NCBI RefSeq assembly: GCF_003350475.1
Contig: NZ_QQAV01000001.1
Location: 1,108,836 to 1,172,835, forward strand
From: Pseudacidovorax intermedius
Lineage (GTDB): Bacteria > Pseudomonadota > Gammaproteobacteria > Burkholderiales > Burkholderiaceae_C
Direction: 5' to 3'
Length of the DNA stretch: 64,000 bases
Shown: piece by piece, positions 36,179-63,557 of the stretch
Layout of the letters: every line of letters starts with the position of its first letter
Numbering within the stretch: position 1 is the stretch's first letter
The notes under the pieces: model-generated
Database searches by the model: none
What the model saw: the letters and a program-made list of their open reading frames with translations, nothing else
Told to the model about the DNA's origin: nothing
Position numbers and translations under genes: made by a program

Positions 36179-36194
36179 TGGCACGCCGCTTGCA
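36179..36194 (+). promoter_or_regulatory. Sigma-54 promoter of the atzF operon
   Basis: TGGCACG at 36179-36185, four bases, then TTGCA at 36190-36194 match the sigma-54 consensus TGGCACG-N4-TTGCW at every position. Counting from the GC at -12 puts the transcription start near 36205, 23 bases before the atzF ATG. The site lies in the only sizeable gap (152 bases) ahead of this nitrogen-catabolism operon. A clear NtrC site was not found in the gap. Confidence 0.9.
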
Positions 36195-36205
36195 TCACAT
36201 CATGT

Positions 36206-36219
36206 ATCCAAGAATGGAT
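36206..36219. promoter_or_regulatory. Candidate repressor operator at the atzF transcription start
   Basis: ATCCA (36206-36210) and TGGAT (36215-36219) form an inverted repeat with a four-base spacer, directly downstream of the predicted sigma-54 start site. A protein bound here would block transcription. The GntR/FCD protein encoded at the end of the operon is the natural candidate. This is inference from position and symmetry. Confidence 0.4.
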
Positions 36220-36227
36220 GCCTGAAC

Positions 36228-37985
36228 ATGGTGCACGAAGCCTCTACCCCCGACGCCCTGACCCGCCCCTTCGCGGCCGCGGGTTCCGCCCAGGTGCCCG
36301 CGCCGCAGCCTGCCCCGGATGGCCGGCCCGAAGCGGCCTGGATCAGCCGCCCGGCCACGCCCATCGCCGGTGCGGCCACCGGCCCGCTCGCCGGCCTGCG
36401 CTTCGCGGTCAAGGACAACATCGACGTCGCCGGCCTGCCCACCACCGCCGCCTGCCCGGCCTTCGCCTATGCGCCCGAAGCGCACGCCACCGTGGTGCAG
36501 CGCCTGCTCGCGGCCGGTGCGTCGGTGGCGGGCAAGACCAACCTCGACCAGTTCGCCTGCGGGCTCAACGGCAGCCGCTCGCCCTACGGCGCGGTGCCCA
36601 ACAGCTTCGATGCGCGCTACGTGTCGGGCGGCTCCAGCTCGGGCTCGGCCTATGCGGTGGCCACGGGGCAGGTGGACTTCTCGCTGGGCACCGACACCGC
36701 CGGCTCCGGCCGCGTGCCGGCGGGGCTCAACAACATCGTGGGCCTCAAGCCCAGCAAGGGCCTCATCAGCGCGAAGGGCGTGGTGCCGGCGGCGCAGAGC
36801 GTGGACTGCGTCTCCATCTTCGCGTCCACCGTGGCGCTGGCCGCGCGGGTGCTGGCCTGCGCCATGGGGCCGGACGCGGGCGATCCGTACTCGCGCCGAC
36901 TCGAGCTCGCGCGCACGCCGCTGCCCGCGCGCTTCCGCTTCGGCGTGCCGCAGCCGCTGGAATTCCACGGCGATGCCCTGGCCGCCGCCGCCTTCGAGCG
37001 CGCCATCGCGCAGCTGCGCGAGCTGGGTGGCGAGCCGGTGCCCGTCGACTACGCGCCCCTGGCCCGCGCCGCCGGTCTGCTCTACGACAGCGCGCTGGTG
37101 GCCGAGCGCTATGCCGCCGTGCGGCCCTTCTTCGACGAACACGAGGACGCGGTGATCGAGCCCGTGCGCGGCATCCTGGCGCGGGGCCGCAGCTTCGATG
37201 CCGCCGACCTGGTCGATGCGCAGAGCCAGCTGCATGCGCTCGGCCAGCAGGCCGCCGCCCTGTGGGCTGGCATCGACGTGCTGCTGGTGCCCACCGCGCC
37301 CACGCACTGCACGCTGGACGCCATGCGCGCCGAGCCGGTGCGGCGCAACAGCGAGCTGGGCCACTACACCAACTTCGTCAACCTGCTGGACTACGCGGCC
37401 CTGTCGGTGCCGGCCAGCCTGCGGCCCGATGGCCTGCCCTTCGGCGTGACCTTCATCGGGCCCTGCGGCAGCGACTTCCGCCTGGCCGAGCTGGGCCAGC
37501 GCTTCCACCACGCCACGGACCTGCCCATGGGCGCCACCGGCGGGCCGCTGCCCCCGCCCGAGGCGCCGGTCTGGCCGCCGCTGGCCGAAGGCGAAGGCAT
37601 GCCCATCGCCGTGGTCGGCGCGCACCTCACCGGCATGCCGCTCAATCATCAGCTCATCGCGCGCGGCGCCACCCTGGTCGAAGCCACCGCCACCGCGCCC
37701 CACTACCGCCTTTACGCGCTGCCGGGCACCACGCCGCCCAAGCCGGGCCTGCAGCGCGAGCCGGGGCAGGGCGTGCCCATCGCGCTGGAGGTCTGGAACG
37801 TGCCGCGCGCCGAGGTCGGCGCCTTCCTGGCGCAGATTCCGCCGCCGCTGGGCCTGGGCAGCGTCGAGCTGGCCGATGGCCGCTGGGTGCACAGCTTCAT
37901 CTGCGAGGCCCATGCGCTGCAGGGCGCCGAGGACGTCAGCGCGCATGGCGGCTGGCGCGCCTACATCGCTTCGCGCAGCGCCTGA
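36228..37985 (+). CDS. atzF: Allophanate/urea-1,3-dicarboxylate hydrolase AtzF
   Basis: AtzF is the last enzyme of cyanuric acid breakdown, releasing ammonia and CO2 from allophanate-type intermediates in the cytoplasm. The 585 residues split into an amidase-signature domain and a C-terminal domain (from about 460). The amidase domain has catalytic Lys62 in FAVKDNIDVAG, GGSSSGS at 134-140 and nucleophile Ser160 in DTAGSGRVPAG. The C-terminal domain carries VVGAHLTGMPLN, HYRLYALPGTTPPKPGL and SFICEAHAL. That second domain is diagnostic of AtzF-type allophanate hydrolase and absent from ordinary amidases. It is the first gene after the sigma-54 promoter. Confidence 0.95.
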   Translation: MVHEASTPDALTRPFAAAGSAQVPAPQPAPDGRPEAAWISRPATPIAGAATGPLAGLRFAVKDNIDVAGLPTTAACPAFAYAPEAHATVVQRLLAAGASVAGKTNLDQFACGLNGSRSPYGAVPNSFDARYVSGGSSSGSAYAVATGQVDFSLGTDTAGSGRVPAGLNNIVGLKPSKGLISAKGVVPAAQSVDCVSIFASTVALAARVLACAMGPDAGDPYSRRLELARTPLPARFRFGVPQPLEFHGDALAAAAFERAIAQLRELGGEPVPVDYAPLARAAGLLYDSALVAERYAAVRPFFDEHEDAVIEPVRGILARGRSFDAADLVDAQSQLHALGQQAAALWAGIDVLLVPTAPTHCTLDAMRAEPVRRNSELGHYTNFVNLLDYAALSVPASLRPDGLPFGVTFIGPCGSDFRLAELGQRFHHATDLPMGATGGPLPPPEAPVWPPLAEGEGMPIAVVGAHLTGMPLNHQLIARGATLVEATATAPHYRLYALPGTTPPKPGLQREPGQGVPIALEVWNVPRAEVGAFLAQIPPPLGLGSVELADGRWVHSFICEAHALQGAEDVSAHGGWRAYIASRSA

Positions 37986-38055
37986 ACCCACTGCGCCCTC
38001 GCGCACCGTCTTTCTCATTCCGTCCTTCCTTTCGTTCGTCCGCAGGAGTCTTCGC

Positions 38056-39054
38056 ATGAGCCCATCGTCGTCCTTCCGTCCCTCCCGCCGCCATGTGCTG
38101 CAGGCCGGCGGTGCCGCCCTCGGCGCGCTGGCCGCGCCCGCCATCGTGCGGGCGCAGGGCGGCCCCAAGCTGCGCATCGGCTACTGGCCGGTGGCCGCGG
38201 GCCTGCCCTTCTTCGCGGCGGTCGAGAAGGGCTACTTCAAGGAAGCCGGCCTGGACGTGGAGCCGCTCAAGTTCGCCGGCGCCCAGCAGGTGATGGAGGC
38301 CATGCTCTCCGGCCGCTCCGACGGCAGTGCCAACGGCACCGGCAGCGCCAACCTGGCCATCGGCGAGATCGCGCAGCCGGGCCTCTTCAAGATCTTCTGC
38401 ACCAACCCCAGCAACGCCAAGTACGTGCTGGAGGAGTTCCTGGTGCCCAAGGACAGCCCCGTCAAGAGCGTGGCCGAGCTCAAGGGCAAGCGCGTGGCCT
38501 CGGGCCCCGGCATCCAGAACGTGACGCTGGCCAAGACCATGCTGGAGCGTGCCGGCGCGGGCGTCATCAACGTCACCGAGCTGCCCATCGGCCAGCACGT
38601 CGCGGCCCTGGCCGCCGGCCAGATCGACGCCGTCTACACCCTGGAGCCCACCGGCACCGTGGGCCGGCTCAACGGCACAACGCGCGTGCTGGAGGCGGGC
38701 GTGGTGGCCCACTACATCCTGGGCGACCCGATGGCCCCGTGGCACGGCGGCTCGGCCAGCCTGACCACCGAGTTCATCAAGAAGAACCCCGAGGTCGCGA
38801 AGAAGTACATCGCCGCCTACAAGCGCGGCATCGAGCTGGTGCGCAACAACCCGGCCGACGCGCGCCAGTACATGAAGGGCTACACCGCCATCGAGGGCGC
38901 GCTCACCAACGAGGTGCCGCTGGCCTCGTACATGCTGCACGACGAGTTCAAGCCCGCCGACATCGCCTACTTCCAGAAGTTCTTCGACCTGTTCACCGAG
39001 AAGGGCATCTTCGAGAAGAAGGTGGGCGTGGACGGGCTGCTCTACCGGGGCTGA
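38056..39054 (+). CDS. ABC importer substrate-binding protein, NMT1/SsuA/TauA type
   Basis: The 332-residue protein has a twin-arginine leader (SRRHVLQAGGAALGALAAPA), suggesting folded export by Tat. It then has the periplasmic NMT1/nitrate-taurine fold with LRIGYWPVAAGLPFFAAVEKG and GYFKEAGLDVE. It precedes a matching permease and ATPase. Within this operon it probably delivers an amide- or urea-type nitrogen compound such as cyanuric acid, biuret or a relative. The ligand is not readable from sequence. GCAGGAG precedes the ATG at normal spacing. Confidence 0.92.
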   Translation: MSPSSSFRPSRRHVLQAGGAALGALAAPAIVRAQGGPKLRIGYWPVAAGLPFFAAVEKGYFKEAGLDVEPLKFAGAQQVMEAMLSGRSDGSANGTGSANLAIGEIAQPGLFKIFCTNPSNAKYVLEEFLVPKDSPVKSVAELKGKRVASGPGIQNVTLAKTMLERAGAGVINVTELPIGQHVAALAAGQIDAVYTLEPTGTVGRLNGTTRVLEAGVVAHYILGDPMAPWHGGSASLTTEFIKKNPEVAKKYIAAYKRGIELVRNNPADARQYMKGYTAIEGALTNEVPLASYMLHDEFKPADIAYFQKFFDLFTEKGIFEKKVGVDGLLYRG

Positions 39055-39059
39055 GCGCC

Positions 39060-39890
39060 ATGAACGCGCCATCCTCCGCCACGGCGGGCGCCTGGAAGCC
39101 GCCCGCCACTGACGTCGCGCCCGCGCTGCCCCGTCCGCCGGTATGGAACAAGCTGCTGCCGGCCATCGGGCCCATCGCGCTCTTCGTGCTGTGGGACCTG
39201 GTGGTGCGGCTGGGCTTCATCAAGCCCATCCTGCTGCCGCCGCCACTGGCCACCTTCCAGACGCTGATCACGGGCCTGGCGGGCGGGCCGCTGCTGAACG
39301 ACTTCCTGGTCACGGTGTGGCGCACGCTGCAGGCCTTCCTGATTGCCGCGGCGGTCGGCATGCCGCTGGGCGTGCTTCTGGGCAGCAACGAGAAGGCGTA
39401 CCGCAGCGTGGAGTTCCTGATCGACTTCTTCCGCTCCACGCCCTCGTCGGCGCTGATCCCGCTGTTCCTGATGATCTTCGGCACCTCGGACATCAACAAG
39501 GTCGCCATCGCGGCCTTCGGCGCCATGCTGATCGTGGTGTTCAACAGCGCCTATGGCGTCATCAACGCCCGCAAGCAGCGGGTGATGGCGGCCAAGGTGA
39601 TGGGGGCCACACGCTGGCAGATTTTCAAGGACGTGCTGCTGTGGGAAAGCCTACAGCCCAGCTTCGTGGGCCTGCGCTCGGCGGTGTCGATGGCGCTGGT
39701 GATCGTCATCGTGGCCGAGATGTTCATCGGCGCCGACAGCGGCCTGGGCAACCGGATCATCAATTCGCAGCAGGTGCTGAACGTCAAGAGCATGTACGCC
39801 AGCATCCTGGCGGCGGGTGCGCTGGGCTATGCGCTCAACGTCTTGTTCCTGGTCATCGAACGCCGCATCGTGCACTGGAGTGGAAGGTAA
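39060..39890 (+). CDS. ABC importer permease, SsuC/TauC type
   Basis: The 276-residue protein has about six membrane helices and the permease EAA loop (VMGATRWQIFKDVLLWESLQP, near residues 180-200), where the ATPase docks. It is the single permease type that pairs with NMT1-type receptors as a homodimer. It begins five bases after the receptor gene's stop codon. The ATPase gene follows after a 141-base gap filled by the dispersed repeat. Confidence 0.93.
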   Translation: MNAPSSATAGAWKPPATDVAPALPRPPVWNKLLPAIGPIALFVLWDLVVRLGFIKPILLPPPLATFQTLITGLAGGPLLNDFLVTVWRTLQAFLIAAAVGMPLGVLLGSNEKAYRSVEFLIDFFRSTPSSALIPLFLMIFGTSDINKVAIAAFGAMLIVVFNSAYGVINARKQRVMAAKVMGATRWQIFKDVLLWESLQPSFVGLRSAVSMALVIVIVAEMFIGADSGLGNRIINSQQVLNVKSMYASILAAGALGYALNVLFLVIERRIVHWSGR

Positions 39891-39904
39891 TGGCCCACCC
39901 CCAG

Positions 39905-40010
39905 GCTGCGCGCTCCGCGCTTCGCCAACCCCCTCAAGGGGGCGCACCCAGCGGCCTGGCAAAGCCAGTTCCGCGGGTGCTCCCGCATGGCCTGCTCCGC
40001 GGCCAGCTGT
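39905..40010 (+). repeat. Dispersed intergenic repeat, copy C
   Basis: This copy separates the permease and ATPase genes of one ABC system. It has the CCCCCTC/GGGGG hairpin and a core at 39938-40005 nearly identical to 1106-1174. The intact operon on both sides shows that the element is tolerated within a transcript, possibly as an RNA hairpin that adjusts expression of the downstream gene. Confidence 0.8.
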
Positions 40011-40031
40011 CCGATTCCATGGAGGTCTGAA

Positions 40032-40853
40032 GTGAGTGCTGTGATCAACGCCCCCGTGGTCGCCGATGTCCCGGCACCGAAGTTCCGCCCCGGCCCGGCC
40101 GGCACGCACATCACCATCCGCGGGCTGACGAAGTACTTCGCCGGCTGGCCGCTGTACGAGGACTTCGACCTCGACATCCCCAAGCACAAGATCGTCTCGG
40201 TCTTCGGGCCCAACGGCTGCGGCAAGAGCACGCTGATCAACATGATCGCGGGACTCATTCCCATCGACCGCGGCGAGATCCTGTTCGACGGCAAGTCGCT
40301 CAAGGACACCAAGATCGGCTACGTGTTCCAGAACTACCGCGAAGCGATGTTCCCGTGGATGCGCACCATCGACAACATCGCCTACCCGCTCAAGCTCGAA
40401 GGCCGCAGCAAGGCCGAGGTGGACCGCCGCATGGAGGAGCTGGTGGCCAGCTTCGACGTCAAGTTCGACCTCCACCGCTTCCCCTACGAGCTCTCCGGCG
40501 GCCAGCAGCAGACGGCCTCGATCATGCGGGCGCTGGCGCCCGGGCCCGAGGTGCTGTTCCTGGACGAGCCCTTCTCGGCGCTGGACTTCGAGATGACGCT
40601 GTTCATCCGCGAGAAGCTGCAGGAGGTGTTCATGCAGACGGGCACCACCATGCTGCTGGTCTCGCATGACCTGGAAGAGGCGGTGTACCTGGCCGACGAG
40701 GTGCTGCTGCTCACCAAGCGGCCGACGCGGGTGGCCGAGATCTTGCGTTACGACGATCCGCGGCCGCGCACCGTGGAGACGCTGAGCCAGCCGAGCTTCG
40801 TCGCGACCAAGAAGCAGAGCCTCGAAATCTTCCAGCGCGAAGTGCGCCGCTGA
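40032..40853 (+). CDS. ABC importer ATP-binding protein, SsuB/TauB type; GTG start
   Basis: The 273-residue ATPase has Walker A GPNGCGKST near residue 60, a Q-loop in GYVFQNYREAMFPW, the signature LSGGQQQ and Walker B VLFLDEPFSALD, all intact. The GTG at 40032 follows a GGAGG site and gives MSAVINAP; the frame upstream runs through the repeat. It powers the importer of 38056-39890. Confidence 0.93.
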   Translation: MSAVINAPVVADVPAPKFRPGPAGTHITIRGLTKYFAGWPLYEDFDLDIPKHKIVSVFGPNGCGKSTLINMIAGLIPIDRGEILFDGKSLKDTKIGYVFQNYREAMFPWMRTIDNIAYPLKLEGRSKAEVDRRMEELVASFDVKFDLHRFPYELSGGQQQTASIMRALAPGPEVLFLDEPFSALDFEMTLFIREKLQEVFMQTGTTMLLVSHDLEEAVYLADEVLLLTKRPTRVAEILRYDDPRPRTVETLSQPSFVATKKQSLEIFQREVRR

Positions 40854-40874
40854 CCCACCGCCACCGAACTGCCC

Positions 40875-41078
40875 ATGACGCCTCAACAGATCGAAGCCTA
40901 CGTGGACGCCGCCTCCGCGGCGCTGGACCTGCCGATTGCGCCCGAGCACCGGCCGGGCGTGCTGCGCTACTTCGCGCTCGCTGCCGACATGGCGGCGCTG
41001 ACCGAGGCCGTGGCGCTGGCGCCGCACGACGAGTCCGCGCTGCGCTTTGAGCCGGTGGCGCCGGGGAGGCATTCATGA
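40875..41078 (+). CDS. atzG: DUF4089 protein AtzG, small subunit of 1-carboxybiuret hydrolase
   Basis: The 67-residue protein is a single DUF4089 unit, with VDAASAALDLPIAPEHRPGV and LAADMAAL as its conserved helices. In Pseudomonas ADP, AtzG is the small partner needed to form an active AtzE-AtzG heterotetramer. Its stop overlaps the atzE start as ATGA, which fits equal synthesis of the two subunits. It is easily missed because of its size. Confidence 0.92.
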   Translation: MTPQQIEAYVDAASAALDLPIAPEHRPGVLRYFALAADMAALTEAVALAPHDESALRFEPVAPGRHS

Positions 41079-42493
41079 GCGCTGCCCAGCCCTGGTTCGA
41101 GGCAGACGCCGCCACCATCGCCGCCGCGGTGCATGGGGGCACGGCCAGCGCCACTGTCGTGGTGCAGTCCGCACTGGACCGCATCGCCGCCACCGATGGC
41201 CGCGTCAACGCCTTCACCGCCGTGACGGGCGAGCGTGCCCTGCAGCGGGCCGCTGCGCTCGATGCCCTGCCGGCCGAGGCCCGCGCCGCGCTGCCGCTGG
41301 CCGGCGTGCCGGTGGCGGTGAAGAACCTGTTCGACGTCGCCGGCCTGCCCACACTGGCCGGCTCGAAGATCGAGCGCGAAGCGCCGCCGGCCACCAACGA
41401 CGCCCTGCTGCTGCGCCGGCTCGAAGCGGCCGGTGCCGTGCTGGTGGGCGCACTCAACATGGACGAGTACGCCTACGGCTTCACCACCGAGAACTCGCAC
41501 GAGGGCCCCACGCGCAATCCGCACGACCTGTCGCGCATCGCCGGCGGCTCCTCCGGCGGCAGCGGTGCCGCGGTGGCGGCCGGGCAGGTGCCGATCACGC
41601 TGGGCTCGGACACCAACGGCTCCATCCGCGTGCCGGCCTCGCTGTGCGGTGTGTACGGCCTCAAGCCCACCTTCGGCCGGCTGCCGCGCACCGGCAGTTA
41701 TCCCTTCGTCAGCAGCCTGGACCACCTGGGCCCCTTCGCCCGCTCGGTGCGCGACCTGGCCCTGGCCTACGACGCGATGCAGGGCCCGGAAGACGGCGCC
41801 CCCGGCGATCCGGGCTGCGCCCAGCGCCCCGTCGAGCCGGTGATCGGCACGTTGCCACAGGGCATCGCCGGCCTGCGCATCGGCGTGCTGGGCGGCTGGT
41901 TCGCGCGCAATGCGCTGCCGGAGGCGCAGGCTGCCGTCGCCCGCGTGGCCGAGGCCCTGGGTGCCACGCGCACCGTCGAACTGCCGCTGGTCGAGGCCGG
42001 CCGCGCCGCCGCCTTCCTGATCAGCAATGCCGAAGGCGCGGCCCTGCATCTGCCGGACCTGCGCCGCCGTGCGCAGGACTTCGAGCCGCTGTCGCGCGAC
42101 CGCTTCCTGGCCGGCGCGCTGCTGCCCGCGGCCTGGGTCATGCGCGCCCAGCGGGTGCGCCGCCGCTATGCCGAGGCCGTGGCCGCGGTGATGCAGGACT
42201 TCGACCTGCTGCTCGCGCCGGCCACGCCCTGTTCGGCCACGCCCATCGGCACCGAATGGCTGGAGCTCGACGGCCGCCGCCAGCCGCTGCGGCCCAGCTT
42301 CGGTGCGCTCACGCAGCCCATTTCCTGCATCGGCCTGCCGGTGTGCGCCGTGCCCGTGTGGGGCGCCCATGCGGCGCTGCCGGTTGGCGTGCAACTGATC
42401 GCGGCGCCCTGGCGCGAAGACCTCGCCCTGCGCGCCGCCGCCGCCCTGGAAGCCACCGGCATCACGCAGGCGCCCGTGGCCCTGCTGCCCTGA
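41075..42493 (+). CDS. atzE: 1-carboxybiuret hydrolase large subunit AtzE
   Basis: AtzE removes one amide from 1-carboxybiuret, the product of cyanuric acid ring opening, releasing ammonia and passing its product to AtzF. The 472-residue amidase-signature protein has catalytic Lys83 (VAVKNLFDVAG), GGSSGGSG at 157-164 and nucleophile Ser183 (DTNGSIRVPASL). It resembles GatA, but pairing with AtzG and position beside atzF identify it. Translation is coupled to atzG. Confidence 0.94.
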   Translation: MSAAQPWFEADAATIAAAVHGGTASATVVVQSALDRIAATDGRVNAFTAVTGERALQRAAALDALPAEARAALPLAGVPVAVKNLFDVAGLPTLAGSKIEREAPPATNDALLLRRLEAAGAVLVGALNMDEYAYGFTTENSHEGPTRNPHDLSRIAGGSSGGSGAAVAAGQVPITLGSDTNGSIRVPASLCGVYGLKPTFGRLPRTGSYPFVSSLDHLGPFARSVRDLALAYDAMQGPEDGAPGDPGCAQRPVEPVIGTLPQGIAGLRIGVLGGWFARNALPEAQAAVARVAEALGATRTVELPLVEAGRAAAFLISNAEGAALHLPDLRRRAQDFEPLSRDRFLAGALLPAAWVMRAQRVRRRYAEAVAAVMQDFDLLLAPATPCSATPIGTEWLELDGRRQPLRPSFGALTQPISCIGLPVCAVPVWGAHAALPVGVQLIAAPWREDLALRAAAALEATGITQAPVALLP

Positions 42494-42542
42494 TTTCGTT
42501 GTCCCCCCTTCCCTCACCCAACCTTCCGCTGGAGCTTTTCGC

Positions 42543-43643
42543 ATGACCGCCTTCAATCGCCGCGAATCCCTCAAGACCCTGGCCGCCCTCGGCGCCGCCG
42601 GCAGCCTGGGCCCCCTGGCCTGGGCCCAGAAGCCGCTGACCGTGGGCGTGATCTACGTCGGCCCGCGCGACGACTATGGCTACAACCAGGCCCATGCCCA
42701 GGCCGCCGCCGAGCTCAAGAAGCTGCCCGGCGTGAAGGTGGTCGAAGAGGAGAACGTGCCCGAGACCGCCGCCGTGCAGAAGACCATGACCGGCATGATC
42801 CAGCAGGACGGCGCCTCGCTGCTCTTCCCCACCTCCTTCGGCTACTTCGACCCGCACATCCTGGCGCTGGCGCCCAAGTACCCCGACGTGCGCTTCTCGC
42901 ACTGCGGCGGCCTGTGGACCGAGAAGAACCCCAAGAACGTGGGCAGCTTCTTCGGCTACATCGACGAATGCCAGTTCCTCAACGGCGTGATCGCCGGCCA
43001 CATGAGCAAGAGCGGCAAGATCGCCTTCGTGGCCGCCAAGCCCATCCCGCAGGTGCTGCGCAACATCAACGCCTTCACGCTGGGTGCGCGCTCGGTCAAG
43101 CCGAACATCACCTGCCATGTGATCTTCACCGGCGACTGGTCCATGGCCGTGAAGGAGGCCGAGGCCACCAACAGCCTGGCCGACCAGGGCTGCGATGTGT
43201 TCACCATGCACGTGGACGGCCCCAAGGTGGTGGTGGAGACCGCCGCCAAGCGCGGCAAGATGGTCTGCGGTTACCACGCCAGCCAGGCCAAGCTGGCGCC
43301 CAATGCCTACCTCACCGGCGCCGAATGGAACTGGCTCACCGCCTACAAGACCATCCTCGAAGCCGCCCAGGCCGGCAAGCCGCATCCCAACTTCCTGCGC
43401 GGCGGCCTCAAGGAAGGCTACGTCAAGACCTCGGCCTATGGCCCCATGGTGACCGACGCCGCCAAGAAGCAGGCCGACGACATCAAGGCCAAGATGGTCG
43501 CGGGCAGCTTCGACATCTTCAAGGGCCCGCTCAAGGACAACAAGGGCAATCAAGTCATCGCCGCCGGCCAGGTGCAGAAGCAGACGGACCTCAAGCTCGA
43601 GCAGATGAACTACCTGGTCGACGGCGTGGTCGGCTCGGTCTGA
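42543..43643 (+). CDS. BMP-family ABC substrate-binding protein
   Basis: The 366-residue receptor has a leader with NRRESLKTLAALGAAG, a possible Tat signal, cleaved near AWAQ. It has the BMP/PnrA-like fold typical of nucleoside importers, with VGVIYVGPRDDYGYNQAH at the start. BMP proteins bind purine nucleosides and related heterocycles, so a nitrogen-rich heterocycle or ureide is a fair guess here. Its two permeases follow directly, while its ATPase lies 3.8 kb further on, after two hydrolase genes. Confidence 0.93.
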   Translation: MTAFNRRESLKTLAALGAAGSLGPLAWAQKPLTVGVIYVGPRDDYGYNQAHAQAAAELKKLPGVKVVEEENVPETAAVQKTMTGMIQQDGASLLFPTSFGYFDPHILALAPKYPDVRFSHCGGLWTEKNPKNVGSFFGYIDECQFLNGVIAGHMSKSGKIAFVAAKPIPQVLRNINAFTLGARSVKPNITCHVIFTGDWSMAVKEAEATNSLADQGCDVFTMHVDGPKVVVETAAKRGKMVCGYHASQAKLAPNAYLTGAEWNWLTAYKTILEAAQAGKPHPNFLRGGLKEGYVKTSAYGPMVTDAAKKQADDIKAKMVAGSFDIFKGPLKDNKGNQVIAAGQVQKQTDLKLEQMNYLVDGVVGSV

Positions 43644-43674
43644 GGCCGGCCCTTCGTTGCAAGGAAGACCTGCC

Positions 43675-45671: not shown

Positions 45672-45683
45672 AAGGAGTCATCC

Positions 45684-53538: not shown

Positions 53539-53599
53539 GGTCTGGGTCCCGTGAGGCCGCCGGATGCGGCGGCATGGACGAATGATGCGACCGGCAGTC

Positions 53600-53638
53600 G
53601 ATGTCTCAAATGACGTATAAAGACATGATTCAAGACAT
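53600..53638. promoter_or_regulatory. Candidate GlxA-type operator: three AGACAT boxes
   Basis: AAGACAT occurs at 53620-53626 and 53632-53638, 12 bases apart. An inverted copy (ATGTCT) lies at 53601-53606. They sit in the 115-base gap between the SDR and AraC/GlxA genes, within 15-50 bases of the regulator's start, and this is the AT-richest stretch nearby. Tandem boxes are typical for AraC-family proteins. Confidence 0.45.
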
Positions 53639-53653
53639 CAATGAGGTGACACC

Positions 53654-54601: not shown

Positions 54602-54743
54602 GCAGCCACGCGGGCCCGGCTTCGCGCCCGGCGTGCGGCGAGTGCGGCCGCCTACCGGCGCCTCGCCGGCTTCCTACAAGGCCCGCCCCAGGCCCCGCAA
54701 CCATGGGTGTCGACCTTTCCCTCACGCGAAGGACCCCGACCCC

Positions 54744-55898: not shown

Positions 55899-55918
55899 CG
55901 AACGGACACGGAGGCCCC

Positions 55919-56464: not shown

Positions 56465-56527
56465 GTAGCCGCGCGGGACCTCGCCGCGCTCCCCAGGAAG
56501 ACGATCCTTCAAGAACGAAAGCCTCCC

Positions 56528-57169: not shown

Positions 57170-58072
57170 TCAGCCGTCGGCGCCGAGCGCGGTCAGCCGC
57201 TCGCGCAGGAACTCGGCGAAGGCGTAGGCGATCACCGGCAGCTGCCGCCCCCGGAGGCAGCCCAGCACCAGTTCGCCCTGGGGAAAGGCCCGGTCCTCGA
57301 TGGCGCGGGCCACGAGGTCGGGCGTCGCCAGGTCGGTGCCGATGGCCATCTGAAAGGTGATGGACTGCCGGTCGGCCAGGCAGCCGAGCAGGAACTCGAA
57401 GCTGTTGCTTTCCACCATGGGCTGGAAGCGGATGGAACTGCGCGAAAGAAAGCGCTCCAGCAGCTGACGCCCGCCGATGTCGCGGTTGGGCAGCACCAGG
57501 GGATAGTCGGCGCAATCGCGCAGGCGCAGCGCGCTGCGACCGGCCAGCGGATGCTCGGCATGCATCATGGCCATGAGCCGCTGGCCGGCCACGTCCAGGC
57601 GCTGGATGTCCGATTCGGCCGGCAGGTTGAACACCAGGGCCAGGTCGGTGTCCAGGCTGCGCAGGGCCTCGGCCGCCTGCACGTGGTCGCCGATGCGGGC
57701 GTCGAAGGCCACCAGTGGATGCGTCTCGCGGAAGGCCGCGATGGCCGCGGGCAGGAAGCGCGGCGCCAGTGCCTGGCTGGCCACCAGCCGCACCCGGCCG
57801 CGGCGCAGGCCCTGCAGCTCCTCGATCTCGGAGCGCACGCGCTCCAGCTCGGCGCCCCGGTCGCGGACATAGCGCACGAACAGCTCGCCCGCCGCCGTGA
57901 GCCGCATGCCCCGCGGCAGCCGCTCGAACAGCGGCGTGCCCAGCTCCTCCTCGATGTCCTGGATGCGGCGGTTGACCGCCGAGGGCGCCACATGCAGCCG
58001 CTCGGCCGCCTGGCGGATGGATCCGATGCGCGCGACCTCGTCGACGTAGCGCAGCAGGCGCAGGTGGTTCAT
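57170..58072 (-). CDS. LysR-type regulator of the atzD operon
   Basis: The 300-residue protein has the LysR helix-turn-helix at residues about 3-60 (GSIRQAAERLHVAPSAVNRRIQDIEEELG) and a type 2 periplasmic-binding effector domain. It is divergent from the cysteine hydrolase gene at 58216. The gap holds a perfect palindrome with T-N11-A geometry, so it almost certainly controls that operon. AtzR, the LysR activator of atzDEF in Pseudomonas ADP, is the functional parallel, but I do not claim orthology. Confidence 0.92.
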   Translation of the reverse strand: MNHLRLLRYVDEVARIGSIRQAAERLHVAPSAVNRRIQDIEEELGTPLFERLPRGMRLTAAGELFVRYVRDRGAELERVRSEIEELQGLRRGRVRLVASQALAPRFLPAAIAAFRETHPLVAFDARIGDHVQAAEALRSLDTDLALVFNLPAESDIQRLDVAGQRLMAMMHAEHPLAGRSALRLRDCADYPLVLPNRDIGGRQLLERFLSRSSIRFQPMVESNSFEFLLGCLADRQSITFQMAIGTDLATPDLVARAIEDRAFPQGELVLGCLRGRQLPVIAYAFAEFLRERLTALGADG

Positions 58073-58130: not shown

Positions 58131-58151
58131 CCGTTGCCAATCCGGCAACGG
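58131..58151. promoter_or_regulatory. LysR-type binding palindrome
   Basis: CCGTTGCC (58131-58138) and GGCAACGG (58144-58151) form a perfect eight-base inverted repeat with a five-base AATCC spacer. It contains the LysR T-N11-A pattern. It lies 59 bases from the LysR start and 65 bases from the hydrolase start, the normal position for an activator recognition site. Confidence 0.75.
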
Positions 58152-58215
58152 CGCACCCGCGATAAAGCGCCGGAAAGTGAGCGCCCGTGGCACGGGCGAT
58201 GCGTGCCACTGACGC

Positions 58216-59049
58216 ATGCACAGCGATGAACGCATTCCCGGCACCAAGTTGGACACGACCCCCGGTGACGCCCCCGGCTTCGGCCCCGCGGCCGGCAACC
58301 GCTGGCAGCTGCAGGACGGGCGCCTGAGCCTGGTCCGCACGCCGCCGGCCCCGCGGCCGCTGGCGCTGCCGGCACAGCCCGAATCGCTCGTGATCGACCT
58401 GGCCCGCACCGCGCTGGTGGTGGTCGACATGCAGAACGACTTCTGCCATCCCGAAGGCTGGTTCGGCCAGAAGGGCCTGGACGTGCAGGCCGCGCGGCGG
58501 CCCATCCCGGTGCTGCAGGCGCTGCTGCCCGCCTGGCGCCGCGCGGGCAGCCCGCTCGTCTGGTGCAACTGGGGCATCCGCGCCGACCGGCGCAACCTCG
58601 GCCCCACGGTGCAGTTCAAGGGCAAGCGGACGGCCGAGGGCGTGGGTTATGGCGAGCGCTCGCCCATCGACCACGGTCCGTCGCTGGTGCAGGGCAGCTG
58701 GGGCGCGGCGCTGGTCGAGGAACTCGCAGCCGAGCCCGGCGACATCCTGGCGCACAAGCACCGGCTCTCGGGCTTCTGGGACAGCGAGCTCGACAGCGTG
58801 CTGCGCAACGCCGGCATCACCACCCTGCTGTTCGCCGGCATCAACACCGACCGCTGCGTGTTCTCCACCCTGCAGGACGCGGCCTTCCTGGGCTACGACT
58901 GCGTGCTGCTGGAGGACGCCTGCAGCACCTCGTCACCCGACTACGTGACCGACGGCGTGCTCTACCTCGTGCGCCTGCTGCACGGCTTCACCGCGACCGC
59001 GGCCGACCTGGGCGCGGCGCTCACCGACCTTCCTTCCCAACCCGACTGA
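58216..59049 (+). CDS. Isochorismatase-like cysteine hydrolase, N-carbamoyl-type
   Basis: The 277-residue protein has the cysteine hydrolase triad Asp71 (VVDMQNDFCHPEGWFG), Lys181 (AHKHRLSGFWDS) and Cys214 (NTDRCVFSTLQ). An extra N-terminal segment of about 55 residues contains PGFGPAAGNRW. It is longer than and clearly different from the two BiuH-type enzymes upstream. Relatives include N-carbamoylsarcosine amidase and ureidoacrylate hydrolase, so hydrolysis of a carbamoyl group from a ring-opened product is likely. It is the first gene of the LysR-controlled operon; the start codon lacks a good ribosome site. Confidence 0.82.
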   Translation: MHSDERIPGTKLDTTPGDAPGFGPAAGNRWQLQDGRLSLVRTPPAPRPLALPAQPESLVIDLARTALVVVDMQNDFCHPEGWFGQKGLDVQAARRPIPVLQALLPAWRRAGSPLVWCNWGIRADRRNLGPTVQFKGKRTAEGVGYGERSPIDHGPSLVQGSWGAALVEELAAEPGDILAHKHRLSGFWDSELDSVLRNAGITTLLFAGINTDRCVFSTLQDAAFLGYDCVLLEDACSTSSPDYVTDGVLYLVRLLHGFTATAADLGAALTDLPSQPD

Positions 59050-59061: not shown

Positions 59062-60111
59062 ATGACCTCGACCCTCTCCCTTCTCGCACGCTGGACGCGG
59101 CCGCTCATCGGCGCTGCGGCCCTGGCGCTGGCTGCGCTGCCCGCCGCCGCGCAGACGCCGATCAAGCTGGTGCTCAACTGGAAGTACGAAGGCCCGCAGG
59201 CCTGGTTCTTCCTGGCGCAGGACCGCGGCTATTTCAAGCAGGAAGGACTGGACGTCACCATCGACCAGGGCGAGGGCTCGGCCGCCTCGATCCCGAAGGT
59301 GGCCGCGGGCACCTACCAGGCCGGCTTCGGCGACATGAATGCGCTGATCGACCTGGCCTCCAAGCGGCCGGCCGATGCGCCGGTGGGCGTGTACATGCTC
59401 TACAACACGCCGCCCTTCGCGGTGGTGGTGCGCAGCGACAGCCCGATCAAAAGCCCCAGGGACCTCGAAGGCAAGACCATCGGCGGCCCGGCCAACGATG
59501 GCGCGCTCAAGCTCTTCCCGGCCTTCGCCAAGCTGGCCAAGATCGACGCCGCCAAGGTGACCATCTCCAACATGGCGCCCAACCTGCGCGAGCAGATGCT
59601 GGTGCGCGGCCAGATCGACGGCGCCTTCGGCTATGTCACCACCGTGAGCTTCAGCGCCCGCGGCATGGGGCTGGACCCGGCCAAGGACCTGCGCTTCATC
59701 CGCTACGGCGACCACGGCATGGACCTCTATGCCAACACCGTCTTCTTCTCGCGCAGCTTCGTGCAGGACAAGCCCCAGGCCGTGGCCGGCTTCGTCAAGG
59801 CGCTCAACCGCGCCATCAAGGACGTGCTGGCCAACCCCGATGCCGGCATCGACGCCGTGATGAAGCGCGAGCCGCTGCTCAAGCGCGACGTCGAGAAAGA
59901 GAAGCTCCTGGCCACGCTCAAGAACGACATGAGCCACCCCGAGATCGCCCGCATCGGCCTGGGCGACGTGGACGACGAGCGGCTCAAGAAGTCCATCGGC
60001 ATCGTGGCCGAGGCCAACCAGCTGCCGCGCCAGCCCGAGGTGGGCGAGGTCTTCGACCGCCGCTTCCTGCCGGCGCGCGCCGAGCGCCCGTCCAGCACCG
60101 TCGCGCCCTGA
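59062..60111 (+). CDS. ABC substrate-binding protein, NMT1/THI5-like
   Basis: The 349-residue periplasmic receptor has a Sec signal peptide ending at AAAQ (near residue 31). An NMT1-type fold follows, with IKLVLNWKYEGPQAWFFLAQ and DRGYFKQEGLDVTIDQGEGS. THI5-like receptors bind pyrimidine precursors and similar heterocycles, which fits the ring-opening enzymes of the operon. Its ATPase begins at 63585, after three enzyme genes; the permease presumably lies beyond the window. Confidence 0.92.
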   Translation: MTSTLSLLARWTRPLIGAAALALAALPAAAQTPIKLVLNWKYEGPQAWFFLAQDRGYFKQEGLDVTIDQGEGSAASIPKVAAGTYQAGFGDMNALIDLASKRPADAPVGVYMLYNTPPFAVVVRSDSPIKSPRDLEGKTIGGPANDGALKLFPAFAKLAKIDAAKVTISNMAPNLREQMLVRGQIDGAFGYVTTVSFSARGMGLDPAKDLRFIRYGDHGMDLYANTVFFSRSFVQDKPQAVAGFVKALNRAIKDVLANPDAGIDAVMKREPLLKRDVEKEKLLATLKNDMSHPEIARIGLGDVDDERLKKSIGIVAEANQLPRQPEVGEVFDRRFLPARAERPSSTVAP

Positions 60112-60151: not shown

Positions 60152-60943
60152 ATGGATCTGCAACTGCGCGACAAGGTCGCCATCATCACCGGCCCGGCCA
60201 AGGGCATGGGCGCCGCCATCACGCTGGCCTTCGCCCGCGAAGGCGCGAAGCTGGTGCTGGCCGGCCGCGACACTGCCGCCATCGAACCCGTGGCCGCCGA
60301 GGCCCGCGCGCTGGGCGTGGCGGCGCAGGTGGTGGCCTGCGACCTCACCGTCTCCAGCCAGACCGAGGCGCTGGCCACGGCGGCGCTGGCCGCCTTCGGC
60401 CGCATCGACATCCTGGTCAACGTGGCCGGCGGCTCGGGCCCCATCGGCAAGACCGGCTGGGAGACGACGACGGAAGAGTTCGACGAGATCGTGCGCCTGA
60501 ACATGACCGGCTGCTTCAACACCATCCGCGCCGTGATGCCCGCGATGGTGGAGCAGCGCAGCGGCAAGATCGTGAACGTGGGCGGCACCTTCGGCCTGCG
60601 CGGGCGTGCCGGGCGCATGGCCTATTCGGCCTCCAAGTGGGGCCTGCGCGGCATCACCAAGAGCTTTGCGCTGGAGGCCGGGCCGCACAACATCAACGTC
60701 AACAACGTCGCGCCGGGCATGGTGGACGGCCCGCGCTTCCGCGAGAAGGTGTGCGCCAACATGGCCCAGCGCCTGGGCATCACGCGGGAAGAGGCGATGC
60801 AGCGCCACGCGGCCGACTACGCGCTGCGCCGCGTCTCCACCGACACAGACATCGCCAACGCCTGCCTGTTCATGGCCAGCGAGGTGTCGCGGCAGATCAC
60901 CGGCGCCGACCTGCCGGTGGACGGCGGCTGGGCCGCGCTGTGA
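60152..60943 (+). CDS. SDR-family oxidoreductase with altered active site
   Basis: The 263-residue protein has an NAD(P) motif TGPAKGMG (residues 13-20), NVAGG where NNAG is usual, and the catalytic pair Tyr-Lys in YSASK. The position of the catalytic Ser, about 13 residues before that Tyr, lies in NVGGTFG, so Ser is replaced by Gly or Thr. The protein ends with ITGADLPVDGGW, the typical SDR close. It may reduce an imine or carbonyl in the heterocycle pathway, or have another role. AGAAAGAAGAG precedes the ATG. Confidence 0.88.
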   Translation: MDLQLRDKVAIITGPAKGMGAAITLAFAREGAKLVLAGRDTAAIEPVAAEARALGVAAQVVACDLTVSSQTEALATAALAAFGRIDILVNVAGGSGPIGKTGWETTTEEFDEIVRLNMTGCFNTIRAVMPAMVEQRSGKIVNVGGTFGLRGRAGRMAYSASKWGLRGITKSFALEAGPHNINVNNVAPGMVDGPRFREKVCANMAQRLGITREEAMQRHAADYALRRVSTDTDIANACLFMASEVSRQITGADLPVDGGWAAL

Positions 60944-60960
60944 GCCGGGGAGTGAGCAGC

Positions 60961-62433
60961 ATGCGACCCGACGTCGACCTTGTCATCCGCGGCGCAAGCG
61001 TGGTCTCGCCCGACGCCATCGTGCCCGCCAGCGTGGCCATCGCCGGCGAGCAGATCGTGGCCGTGGGCCACGACGACACCATGCCGCCCGCACGCGAAGA
61101 ACTGCGCGCCGACGGCCTGTTCCTGCTGCCCGGGGCCATCGACAGCCATGTGCACTTCCGCGATCCGGGCTATCCGCACAAGGAGACCTGGCGCACCGGC
61201 TCGGCCGCCGCCGCGCTCGGCGGCGTGACCACCGTCTTCGACATGCCCAACACCTCGCCGGCCACGGGCACCGTGGAGGCGCTGCGGCTCAAGCAGAAGG
61301 CGGCCGAGGCCTCGTACTGCGACTTCGGCATCCACGGCCTGCTGGGCGACGACACCATCGAGCGGCTGGAAGAGCTGCTGGAGGCCGGCGTCACCAGCTT
61401 CAAGGCCTTCGTCGGCAACACCTTCGGCAACCTGCCCGCGCCCACCGACGGTGCGCTGCTGGAGGGCTTCGAGACGCTGGCGCCGCTGGGCATCCGCACG
61501 GTGGTGCATGCCGAGAACTCGTCCATCCTGTTCCGCCGCCAGAAGAAGATGCAGGAGGCCGGCCGCATCGACGCCATGGCCCACCTGGCGGCGCGGCCCG
61601 CCGTGGCCGAGATCGAGGCCATCGGCCGCGTGCTCACGCTGGCCGAATGGACCGGCGCGCGGGTGCACATCGCCCACCACAGCGCGGCCGATTCGCTCTT
61701 CCTGCTGCGCGAGGCCAAGCGCCGCGGCGTGGACGTGACGGCCGAGACCTGCCCGCAGTACCTGCTGCTCAACACCGGGCACATGTCGAAGCTCGGCGGC
61801 GTGATGCGGCTGAACCCGCCCATCCGCGAGCCGCGTCACAACCAGCCCCTGTGGGACGCGCTGATGGACGGCACGCTGGACATGATCGCCACCGACCATG
61901 CGCCGCATGCGCCCGAGGAGAAGACGCGCGAGAGCATCTGGGACTGCGACTGCGGCTTCCCGGGGGTGGAGACGCAGATGCCGCTGATGCTCACCGAAGT
62001 CAACCGCGGCCGCGCCACGCTCATGGACTACGTGCGCTGGAGCGCCGTCGCCCCGGCCAGGGCCTGGGGCCTGTACGGCACCAAGGGCGTGATCGCGCCC
62101 GGCGCCCATGCCGACATCGCCATCGTCGACATGGCGCGCCAGGGCGTGCTGTCGCAGAACCGGCTGCAGAGCATCAGCCGCATCTCGCCCTGGCACGGGC
62201 GGCCTGTGCAGGGCTATCCGCTGCACACGCTGCTGCGCGGGCGCTTCGTCATGCGCGAGGGTCGCCTCGTGGAAGACGCCGTGGGCTGGGGCCGTTCGGT
62301 CAAGGCGGTGCAGAAGATGCCCACGCCCCGGCCGCGCAACACCGAGCACTACAGCCGCGCCATCCTGGAGACGCCGCCCGGCGTGCCGCCAACCGCGGTG
62401 CCGGTGGGCGAGGTGGACTGGAGCGCGAGATGA
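60961..62433 (+). CDS. Cyclic amidohydrolase (dihydroorotase/allantoinase/hydantoinase family)
   Basis: The 490-residue TIM-barrel enzyme has binuclear metal ligands: His63 and His65 (DSHVHFRDPG), carbamylated Lys148 (SFKAFVGN), His183 (VVHAENSS), His239/240 (VHIAHHS) and Asp312 (ATDHAPHAPEEK). It opens a cyclic amide such as dihydroorotate, allantoin or a hydantoin. FRDPGYPHKETW and DMPNTSP point toward the allantoinase/dihydroorotase side. The long C-terminus (RPRNTEHYSRAI) is unusual. A biosynthetic pyrC role is unlikely given the operon. Its stop overlaps the atzD start as ATGA. Confidence 0.9.
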   Translation: MRPDVDLVIRGASVVSPDAIVPASVAIAGEQIVAVGHDDTMPPAREELRADGLFLLPGAIDSHVHFRDPGYPHKETWRTGSAAAALGGVTTVFDMPNTSPATGTVEALRLKQKAAEASYCDFGIHGLLGDDTIERLEELLEAGVTSFKAFVGNTFGNLPAPTDGALLEGFETLAPLGIRTVVHAENSSILFRRQKKMQEAGRIDAMAHLAARPAVAEIEAIGRVLTLAEWTGARVHIAHHSAADSLFLLREAKRRGVDVTAETCPQYLLLNTGHMSKLGGVMRLNPPIREPRHNQPLWDALMDGTLDMIATDHAPHAPEEKTRESIWDCDCGFPGVETQMPLMLTEVNRGRATLMDYVRWSAVAPARAWGLYGTKGVIAPGAHADIAIVDMARQGVLSQNRLQSISRISPWHGRPVQGYPLHTLLRGRFVMREGRLVEDAVGWGRSVKAVQKMPTPRPRNTEHYSRAILETPPGVPPTAVPVGEVDWSAR

Positions 62434-63557
62434 GCGGCACCGTCCCCCAGCATGTGGACGCGCACGTGGTGCCCTGCCGCGGCCCCGGCGACCTGAGCGG
62501 CGTGCAGGCCCTGGTCGAGGCCGGCACGCTCGATCCGCGCCACATCGTGGCTGTGATGGGCAAGACCGAGGGCAACGGCTGCGTCAACGACCACACCCGC
62601 GACTTCGCCGCCATGGCCTGGTGCCATTACCTGGCGCCGCACCGCGGCTGCACGCCGCAGGCGGTGCATGCGCAGGTCGCACTGGTGATGTCCGGCGGCA
62701 CCGAGGGCGTGCTGTCGCCGCACTTCACCGTGTTCACCCGCCGCGCGGCATTGCCGCACGAGGTGGTCGAAGGCGAGAAGCGTCTGGTGGTCGGCATTGC
62801 CCACACGCGCGACTTCGCGCCGGAGGAGATGGGCCGCCAGGCGCAGATCGCCGCCACGGCCGAGGCGGTGCAGGCCGCCATGCGCGACGCCGGCATCGAC
62901 AGCGCCGCCGACGTCCACTTCGTGCAGGTCAAGTGCCCGCTGCTCACTTCGGCCAAAGTAGACGACGCGCTCGGCCGCGGGCAGGACACGGTCACGCGCG
63001 ACACCTACGAGTCGATGGGCTACTCGCGCGCCGCCTCGGCCCTGGGCGTGGGCGTGGCCCTGGGCGAGATCGACCCGGCGCGCGCCACCGACGCCGCCGT
63101 GCTGCACGACCTCAGCCTTCATTCGGCCCGCGCCTCCGTGTCGGCCGGCATCGAGCTGGAAGGCAACGTGGTCATCGTGCTGGGCGAGGCGGCGGGCAGC
63201 GCCTCGCCGCTGCGCATCGGCCATGCGCTGATGCGCGACGCGGTGGACACCGCCGGCCTGCGCACGCTGCTGCGCGAGCATTTCGGCCTGGATCCGGAAG
63301 CCGACGCGGCCCTCATCGCGCAGCGGCTGGTCAACCTGCTGGCCAAGGCCGAGGCCAGCCCCGACGGCCGGGTGCGCGAGGCGCGCCACACCATGCTGAA
63401 CGACTCGGACATCCACTCGACGCGCCATGCGCGTGCCGCCGTCGGGGCCGTGCTGGCCTCGGTGGTCGGCCGCACGGCGCTCTACGTCTCCGGCGGTGCC
63501 GAGCACCAGGGCCCGCCCGGCGGCGGCCCGGTGGCGGCGCTGGTGCGCGTGGCCTGA
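62430..63557 (+). CDS. atzD: Cyanuric acid amidohydrolase (AtzD/barbiturase ring-opening family)
   Basis: The 375-residue protein belongs to the rare AtzD/TrzD/barbiturase family. Its three repeated domains each bring a Lys and a Ser: Lys45 (GKTEGNGCVND) with Ser88 (VMSGGTEGVLSPH), Lys168 (VQVKCPLLT) with Ser238 (SVSAGIELE), and Lys306 (LLAKAEASPDG) with Ser354 (YVSGGAEHQGPPGGGP). As I recall it, the Pseudomonas AtzD sequence agrees at all six with a near-constant offset. AtzD opens cyanuric acid to 1-carboxybiuret, the substrate of AtzE. Barbiturases share the fold, so barbituric acid remains possible. Translation is coupled to the cyclic amidohydrolase gene. Confidence 0.93.
   Translation: MSGTVPQHVDAHVVPCRGPGDLSGVQALVEAGTLDPRHIVAVMGKTEGNGCVNDHTRDFAAMAWCHYLAPHRGCTPQAVHAQVALVMSGGTEGVLSPHFTVFTRRAALPHEVVEGEKRLVVGIAHTRDFAPEEMGRQAQIAATAEAVQAAMRDAGIDSAADVHFVQVKCPLLTSAKVDDALGRGQDTVTRDTYESMGYSRAASALGVGVALGEIDPARATDAAVLHDLSLHSARASVSAGIELEGNVVIVLGEAAGSASPLRIGHALMRDAVDTAGLRTLLREHFGLDPEADAALIAQRLVNLLAKAEASPDGRVREARHTMLNDSDIHSTRHARAAVGAVLASVVGRTALYVSGGAEHQGPPGGGPVAALVRVA

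Follow-up and report, generated by a model that had tools for sequence, protein, structure and literature searches.

The locus described here is closest to bacterial systems for the breakdown of cyanuric acid, biuret and triuret. In the published accounts, as far as they were accessible, 1-carboxybiuret is the product of both the triuret hydrolase TrtA and the cyanuric acid amidohydrolase AtzD, and it is converted to allophanate either by AtzEG or by decarboxylation and the action of BiuH, after which AtzF gives ammonia and CO2. The accessible part of PMC6219798 gives the cluster order in Variovorax and Rhodoferax as atzF - (ABC) - atzG-atzE-atzH - ABC - amidase, that of PMC7948467 names uric acid oxidation as a suggested cyanuric acid source, and that of PMC4051656 states that no organism is known to make cyanuric acid naturally and regards the hydrolases of this compound as possibly a minor fold that is dying out. 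Here we analyze a 64,000-nucleotide stretch of Pseudacidovorax intermedius (the window, which belongs to contig C1 in a genome of 5.98 Mb), in which atzF, atzG, atzE and biuH lie in one operon (operon 1, 36228-50484) and atzD lies in another (operon 2, from 58216). These are likely two co-working nitrogen-scavenging operons, with operon 1 mineralizing ureides and operon 2 catabolizing an N-heterocycle and handing over the AtzD product. Genes, residues, gene order, co-occurrence and conserved sites were computed, and from these we infer the activities, the operon 2 substrate, the regulation and the hand-over.

Results

Predicted cyanuric acid, biuret and triuret hydrolases of the two operons

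The original prediction, made from the letters of the window and their open reading frames, placed every enzyme for cyanuric acid and biuret mineralization in two operons 13 kb apart. The two-operon layout is borne out: atzF, atzG, atzE and biuH all exceed their family cut-offs within operon 1, and atzD (62430-63557, + strand) scores 525.5 bits against NF052395 (cut-off 360) within the separate operon 2. The distance needs correction: operon 1 ends at 50484 and operon 2 starts at 58216, which leaves 7.7 kb between them, and atzD itself begins 11.9 kb beyond operon 1; the figure of 13 kb reaches from operon 1 to the end of atzD. As for completeness, genes for AtzD, AtzE, AtzG, AtzF and BiuH are present, but neither operon encodes AtzH, which acts as 1,3-dicarboxyurea decarboxylase and has its gene in the Pseudomonas ADP operon; the single AtzH match of the host genome lies about 132 kb beyond atzD. 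The atzD, G, E, H and F genes are therefore not found together as an atzDGEHF operon, with atzD in the other operon and AtzH elsewhere.

Comparison of AtzD with solved cyanuric acid amidohydrolases gave 408 bits for 4bvq, 390 for both 6bum and 5t13, 378 for 6dhj and 310 for 4nq3, against 286 for barbiturase 5hwe and 233 for the ring-opening amidohydrolase 5hy0. All ten catalytic positions are retained, comprising three Ser-Lys pairs, three Arg residues and Glu230, with Arg rather than Gln at 188; these are the positions named for the Azorhizobium enzyme in the accessible part of PMC4051656. Equivalog score and residue set together mark AtzD as a predicted cyanuric acid hydrolase, while its assignment as a barbiturase is disfavored both by the Arg where barbiturase has Gln and by the lower barbiturase score. 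The closest named relatives are mostly from Pseudacidovorax (95-98% identity), and identity to AtzD of Pseudomonas sp. ADP is 58% over 94%.

Operon 1 encodes two related cysteine hydrolases, which we distinguished by positions that discriminate BiuH from TrtA, taken from the accessible part of PMC7948467. The product of biuH (46753-47475, + strand; NF050097 418 bits, cut-off 370) shows BiuH letters at each of the six positions (47, 53, 147, 173, 200 and 218), its closest solved relative is BiuH 6azo, and it is 72% identical to BiuH of R. johnstonii. The gene at 49057-49731 (+ strand) instead falls under the BiuH cut-off (261 of 370 bits) and its best solved relative is TrtA 6xix, at 318 bits versus 200-230 bits for BiuH entries. 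It carries TrtA letters at all six positions (Phe35, Asn41, Ala134, Glu160, Tyr187 and Ile205) and retains the four catalytic residues Asp, Lys, Cys and Gln202; the hydrolase pair of R. johnstonii splits into BiuH and TrtA letters in just the same way. Judged by scores and residues, this gene is a predicted triuret hydrolase gene, trtA, which the original prediction overlooked, and its presence puts a gene behind that prediction's guess of triuret as an input.

The remaining mineralization genes also score above the cut-offs of their families. The allophanate hydrolase gene atzF (36228-37985, + strand) scores 742.6 bits against TIGR02713 (cut-off 511) and is the sole match in the host genome at E 1e-60. 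The partner subunit gene atzG (40875-41078, + strand) scores 52.5 bits against the AtzG-like model PF13318 (cut-off 24), and the adjoining atzE (41075-42493, + strand), which encodes an amidase of the 1-carboxybiuret hydrolase family, scores 681 bits against TIGR02715 (cut-off 426). An AtzE model score above the cut-off with an adjoining AtzG identifies the pair as AtzEG, although the family models are silent on which amide is the substrate.

Conservation of operon 2 and relocation of atzD

Operon 2 begins at 58216, runs past the window end and has the order ISO, SBPa, SDR, DHO, atzD, ATPase, permease, SBPb, DEAM, DUF3830, with a LysR gene divergent from it. It is thus more than an atzD operon: it is a conserved cluster with four further enzymes, namely the isochorismatase-like cysteine hydrolase ISO, the SDR oxidoreductase, the allantoinase/hydantoinase-like cyclic amidohydrolase DHO and the AtzB-like amidohydrolase DEAM. 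These genes went unmentioned in the original prediction, as did trtA and the formamidase gene of operon 1 and, past the window, DUF3830. No description of the cluster was found in the literature searched, which excludes most subscription papers and so makes this a weak negative, nor was any paper found under the name DUF3830 in the same literature; as far as that search goes, the cluster is apparently undescribed.

To evaluate conservation we used an AtzD search of genome contigs, which yielded 119 relatives, of which the best 80 loci were kept, many of them ended by contig ends. DHO (at least 55% identity) is found in 50 of the 80 atzD loci, and in 45 of these 50 the atzD match begins within 300 bases of the DHO match, downstream and on the same strand. 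DHO is closer to the window's copy than AtzD is in 49 of the 50 loci, and across 41 full-length pairs outside Pseudacidovorax-like loci median identity is 83% for DHO (range 74-94%) versus 72% for AtzD (range 50-94%). Gene clustering of the 50 DHO loci returned, as families present in at least 20 loci, only operon 2 proteins, an unlabelled frame whose length and location match those of the permease, and a shadow frame on the antisense strand. One contig with both AtzD and DHO is filed as a Bordetella parapertussis metagenome-assembled genome (L085), but in the AtzD tree it groups with uncultured Burkholderiales and lake-named bins, and the label looks doubtful.

The operon that holds atzD differs from relative to relative. 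The 80 loci comprise 41 with DHO only, nine with DHO and an operon 1 gene (in L043 and L080 just a GntR), ten with operon 1 genes and no DHO, one with part of operon 2 together with operon 1, and three with part of operon 2 only. Two Rhodoferax loci (L073 and L076) have the order atzF-atzG-atzE-atzH-atzD-BMP importer-biuH-trtA-gntR; in Xylophilus (L067) atzD comes after gntR, and in L047 an ISO-atzD-DEAM unit does so. The AtzD proteins of these four loci are 70-76% identical to the window AtzD, and R. johnstonii 3841 pRL10 has a 52% AtzD between biuH and the BMP ATPase. In L076 the AtzE match at 8.2-9.6 kb is in two pieces (66% and 75%), perhaps through a contig frameshift. The operons can also be neighbors: in Variovorax soli (L061) permease C-biuH-ATPase-trtA-gntR immediately precedes LysR and operon 2, and BMP-formamidase-biuH-trtA-gntR is convergent to operon 2 in the gammaproteobacterium Halopseudomonas pelagia (L115), with atzF, atzG and atzE not within the retrieved stretches of either. 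In the AtzD tree of 100 rows, from which L109 (268 aa) was left out, the window AtzD belongs to a clade of 62 rows (support 99/98) in which DHO contexts and operon 1 contexts occur side by side and the inner branching is partly unresolved.

The genes between the operons (50527-57109) partly recur beside the LysR gene in L037, L038, L040, L042 and L043, so that the inter-operon distance looks like a lineage-specific insertion. The original prediction had treated the split between the operons as telling in itself. This is not supported, given that atzD moves among relatives and that biuret metabolism is described as mostly independent of cyanuric acid in the accessible part of PMC7948467.

Co-occurrence was assessed in an order-level draw of 399 genomes with thresholds of E <= 1e-100 for DHO, E <= 0.001 for AtzD and E <= 1e-50 for BiuH/TrtA, which returned seven genomes with DHO, 26 with AtzD (15 above the cut-off) and 57 with BiuH/TrtA. 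An AtzD match is present in all seven DHO genomes, from a base of 26/399 (p 2.2e-9), and in six of six once the host's own genome is removed (p 3.3e-8); BiuH/TrtA is present in six of seven, from a base of 57/399 (p 4.2e-5), where all p values ignore relatedness. AtzD is above its cut-off in six of the seven. Conversely, BiuH is above its cut-off in 35 genomes of the draw, of which eight have AtzD above the cut-off and 27 do not, agreeing with the published view of biuret metabolism. Together with the predicted trtA, this supports the earlier suggestion that the lower pathway serves other inputs. In a class-level draw of 369 genomes DHO occurs in two, the host and G568, both among the six with AtzD, and in G568 DHO and AtzD are 5 kb apart.

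Proposed pathway and its alternatives

In the two-operon reading that we consider likely, operon 1 would import small ureides, and TrtA would convert triuret to 1-carboxybiuret. Carboxybiuret would be processed by AtzEG and then by AtzH encoded elsewhere or by spontaneous decarboxylation; in an alternative branch it would decay to biuret, which BiuH would convert to allophanate. AtzF would complete the route from allophanate to ammonia and CO2, and the formamidase may handle formamide or a formylated fragment. Operon 1 would be switched on via sigma-54 under nitrogen limitation, with GntR probably modulating expression. Operon 2, under its own LysR regulator, would import and catabolize an N-heterocycle by means of an amidohydrolase/deaminase, an SDR, an allantoinase-like ring opener, a ureido/amide hydrolase and two binding proteins, and its AtzD would yield 1-carboxybiuret, feeding operon 1. 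We take DHO, ISO and SDR to follow the ring opener, ureido hydrolase and redox logic of pyrimidine or hydantoin breakdown. Since cyanuric acid would require none of the three, we read operon 2 as the pathway of another heterocycle that uses or yields the AtzD substrate, and we propose the hand-over because atzD sits in or right behind operon 1 in the relatives with 70-76% AtzD.

Several observations weigh against this proposal. The 80 loci were picked by similarity to the window AtzD, which favors near relatives and the window's arrangement, and 16 of them nonetheless carry neither operon (several being ended by contig ends). Nine of the 15 order-draw genomes with AtzD above the cut-off lack DHO. 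Of the genomes with DHO, G002 has no atzD in the cluster, its AtzD being on another contig, and no BiuH/TrtA at E 1e-50, while G180 carries an AtzD fragment and a DHO with an internal stop; both genes of G180 (L123/L172) seem to be decaying. DHO is also found in seven plasmid records, all alphaproteobacterial, and among the four examined Skermanella is the sole one with atzD within 10 kb. In Azospirillum ramasamyi and A. argentinense the operon 2 core comes with an acetamidase/formamidase and without atzD within 10 kb. At the Novosphingobium RL4 locus LysR and DUF3830 lie near SDR-DHO, and there is no match to atzD. Finally, the accessible part of PMC6219798 describes atzG-atzE homologues in other contexts, without atzD or atzF.

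A simpler account, possible but in our view unlikely, is that operon 2 is a plain s-triazine pathway in which DEAM would strip an exocyclic amine from ammelide to give cyanuric acid, AtzD would open the ring, and DHO, SDR and ISO would be accessory. DEAM has conserved metal-ligand motifs and falls in an amidohydrolase group that includes atrazine chlorohydrolase and triazine hydrolase, and the reduced ISO-AtzD-DEAM unit behind operon 1 in L047 lacks DHO and SDR; AtzD and DEAM are also near each other in L017 (a 4 kb stretch) and L087. However, cyanuric acid leaves no carbon skeleton and hence no job for SDR, DHO or ISO, and yet in 49 of 50 loci DHO, not AtzD, is the better conserved of the two; moreover, no solved enzyme resembles DEAM more than weakly. 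It is less probable still that the ring opened by the window AtzD is another six-membered imide, produced within operon 2, rather than cyanuric acid. Barbiturase does belong to the AtzD family, and AtzD usually has as neighbors an allantoinase-like enzyme, an SDR and a RutB-like hydrolase, a combination also seen where pyrimidine or purine rings are broken down, but this idea conflicts with the 525-bit cyanuric acid model score (cut-off 360), with the retained Ser-Lys pairs and Arg residues, including Arg at the barbiturase position, and with the location of same-clade AtzD relatives within biuret operons.

Comparably doubtful is an allantoin or hydantoin pathway in which AtzD would be a passenger. 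The AllB score of DHO lies 8 bits below the cut-off and is the top AllB match of the host genome, three of the seven plasmid records label the orthologues 'allantoinase AllB', and AtzD is missing at two Azospirillum loci and one Novosphingobium locus. Against this, no cluster gene is annotated or matched as an allantoate or ureidoglycolate enzyme, the nearest solved relative of DHO is an L-hydantoinase with allantoinase only second, and AtzD has a match in every DHO genome of both draws. A more speculative extension of the two-operon reading, to which we give a small chance, is that operons 2 and 1 form a natural pathway for damaged or analogue nucleobases, in which the allantoinase-like enzyme would open one ring and AtzD the cyanuric acid ring; equally tentative examples are oxidation products of 8-oxoguanine or urate, 5-azapyrimidines and oxonate. 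Hints in this direction are the nucleoside-type importer of operon 1, the presence of formamidase-type genes both in operon 1 and among the alphaproteobacterial clusters, the location of the host's other two AtzD paralogues near PuuE-type genes (neither over the PuuE cut-off), and a LOG-family protein (TIGR00730) in 19 of the 80 loci, every one of them with DHO. The LOG family releases bases from nucleotides; the LOG-family protein of L071 (12817-13431), for example, is under the cytokinin-LOG cut-off (119 of 300).

Regulatory elements

Upstream of atzF lies an exact sigma-54 (-24/-12) element, TGGCACGCCGCTTGCA (36179-36194, + strand), of the form TGGCAC-N5-TTGCA. It is the sole exact match in the window, where 100 shuffles gave a mean of 0.05, and its place upstream of the first gene, with the consensus TGGCAC-N5-TTGCW, marks operon 1 as a candidate for sigma-54 control. 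Eight exact sites occur in the 2.03 Mb of retrieved loci (some overlapping): upstream of atzF in L073 and L076, upstream of atzD in L102, upstream of SBPa in L173, and in pRL10 (L168) both upstream of BMP and 187 bp before an NrtA-like gene, with the remaining two not assigned to a gene. Sigma-54 control of the lower pathway, as originally predicted, is supported at the sequence level by the exact element here and by its counterparts ahead of atzF in two Rhodoferax loci and ahead of BMP in pRL10. The putative GntR repressor of the original prediction corresponds to a GntR-family gene that ends operon 1 (49750-50484, + strand).

The proposal of separate LysR control for the ring-opening gene likewise gains support from a LysR-family regulator gene (57170-58072, - strand) divergent from operon 2 and from an inverted repeat, GTTGCC-N5-GGCAAC (58133-58149, strandless), which is a probable LysR operator. 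The repeat is found in 24 of 36 LysR-ISO intergenic regions, where 0.03 were expected (40 shuffles each), including that of Halopseudomonas but not those of G002 or G568. The 36 regions come from 33 of the 80 loci together with the host, G002 and G568, and many are related rather than independent; loci without a divergent LysR and ISO, or with a spacing of <= 50 or >= 900 bases, were excluded. A second conserved element, TGGCACGGGCGATGCG (58188-58203, + strand), may be promoter-like or a second dyad: GGCAC-N6-TGC occurs in 21 of the 36 regions (0.30 expected), is palindromic in several loci, and lies 55 bp from the GTTGCC dyad in 14 of the 15 regions holding both. An exact sigma-54 site before operon 2 was sought and found in none of the 36 regions.

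Gene content of the two operons

Operon 1 comprises 14 genes on the + strand with intergenic gaps of -4 to 96 bases as called, in the order atzF, NrtABC-like importer, atzG, atzE, BMP-type importer, formamidase, biuH, trtA, gntR. The NrtABC-like importer consists of an NrtA/SsuA-like substrate-binding protein (38056-39054, + strand, start approximate; above the PF09084 cut-off and below that of TIGR01728), a SaoP/SsuC-like permease (39060-39890, + strand, under cut-offs) and an ATPase (39987-40853, + strand; this is the longest frame and the true start is probably further in). The importer of the BMP type, a nucleoside importer family, consists of a substrate-binding protein (42543-43643, + strand; PF02608 147.9 bits), permeases B (43657-44757, + strand) and C (44754-45671, + strand), and an ATPase (47472-49040, + strand) placed between biuH and trtA; permeases and ATPase are under cut-offs. 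The formamidase gene (45684-46748, + strand) scores 569.6 bits against NF009803 (cut-off 406).

In operon 2, ISO (58216-59049, + strand) scores 143 of 378 bits against RutB and 116 of 370 against BiuH. It has the catalytic Asp, Lys and Cys but does not keep the biuret-binding Lys145 and Gln215 positions, and is neither BiuH, TrtA nor RutB by score or residues; with scores so far under the equivalog cut-offs and neither residue in place, a role as a third biuret/triuret hydrolase was rejected. It is followed by the NMT1/SsuA-like substrate-binding protein SBPa (59062-60111, + strand, under cut-offs) and by SDR (60152-60943, + strand; PF13561 172 bits). The SDR has YSASK in 48 of 48 loci and, also in 48 of 48, GG at the position where we expect the catalytic Ser; an invariant GG there is unusual for a working SDR. 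DHO (60961-62433, + strand) scores 349.9 bits against the AllB model (cut-off 357.85), a shortfall by which it was rejected as a canonical allantoinase AllB and kept only within the rival reading weighed above; its metal-ligand motifs are present in 45-46 of 46 sequences. After atzD come an ABC ATPase (63585-64000, + strand, cut by the window end) and, beyond the window (L004 5621-10375), the permease, SBPb, DEAM and DUF3830. Profile ranking for DEAM gave two unassigned entries followed by MTA/SAH deaminase, 8-oxoguanine deaminase, atrazine chlorohydrolase and triazine hydrolase. The DEAM alignment covers 19 of 29 eligible loci, and that of DHO 22 of 39.

The host genome holds two further AtzD-family members, one above the cyanuric acid cut-off and one below it. 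The first (L005, C1:1302000-1320000) scores 453.6 bits, and its neighbors are a PuuE-type gene (316 of 425 bits) and genes for a weakly HpxO-like monooxygenase, an amidase, an SsuA/NrtA-like binding protein and AtzH; the region is possibly a second ureide pathway. The second (L006, C13:68000-86000) scores 194 bits, three of its ten aligned positions are altered (Ser79, Ser226 and Arg314), and it probably acts on another substrate; it lies among RutB-like, nitrilase, Rieske oxygenase and weakly PuuE-like (87 of 425 bits) genes. Elsewhere in the window, regions 8484-9872 and 26640-31371 hold aromatic catabolism genes, including homogentisate 1,2-dioxygenase and a fumarylacetoacetase-type hydrolase, as well as an FAD monooxygenase and TctC-type binding proteins. 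Searches of the window with Rfam (gathering thresholds) and ARAGORN gave no matches.

Discussion

Because it brings together AtzD, an allantoinase-like ring opener, an amidohydrolase and importers, the operon 2 cluster, which is conserved in beta- and gammaproteobacteria and found once with AtzD in an alphaproteobacterium, offers a concrete, testable place to seek the natural substrate of AtzD. The nucleobase reading, if true, would supply the missing natural role of the AtzD family. Tests of regulation gain a putative LysR operator and sigma-54 sites, and the two operons supply candidate enzymes for removing triuret, biuret and cyanuric acid.

Operon 2 shares LysR, a substrate-binding protein, SDR, an importer, a second substrate-binding protein, an amidohydrolase and DUF3830 with Skermanella and Azospirillum plasmids, whose DHO counterpart is annotated 'allantoinase AllB' or 'dihydroorotase family protein'. 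We know of no function for this plasmid core, which differs from operon 2 in adding an acetamidase/formamidase family gene, in lacking ISO and in having a ring-opening amidohydrolase in Skermanella only. Operon 1 resembles R. johnstonii (leguminosarum) 3841 pRL10, where BMP importer, formamidase, BiuH, ATPase and TrtA-type hydrolase follow in identical order and sigma-54 sites, with a GntR gene and an NrtA-type importer close by, are also shared; in pRL10, however, biuH is separated from the ATPase by atzD, and none of atzE, atzG and atzF is seen in the 25 kb stretch. Like the Variovorax and Rhodoferax clusters, as the accessible part of PMC6219798 presents them, operon 1 has atzF upstream, importer genes before atzG-atzE, and importer and amidase genes downstream, but it lacks atzH and its downstream enzymes are formamidase, BiuH and TrtA. 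With the Herbaspirillum BH-1 operon, from the accessible part of PMC7948467, it shares TrtA, BiuH and AtzF together, to which it adds AtzEG, formamidase and two importers. With the atzDGEHF operon of Pseudomonas sp. ADP, again from the accessible part of PMC6219798, the host shares AtzD, AtzG, AtzE and AtzF, but here AtzD is in the other operon, AtzH is outside both, and BiuH and TrtA are added. Operon 1 belongs to a known kind, with familiar parts brought together in a new way.

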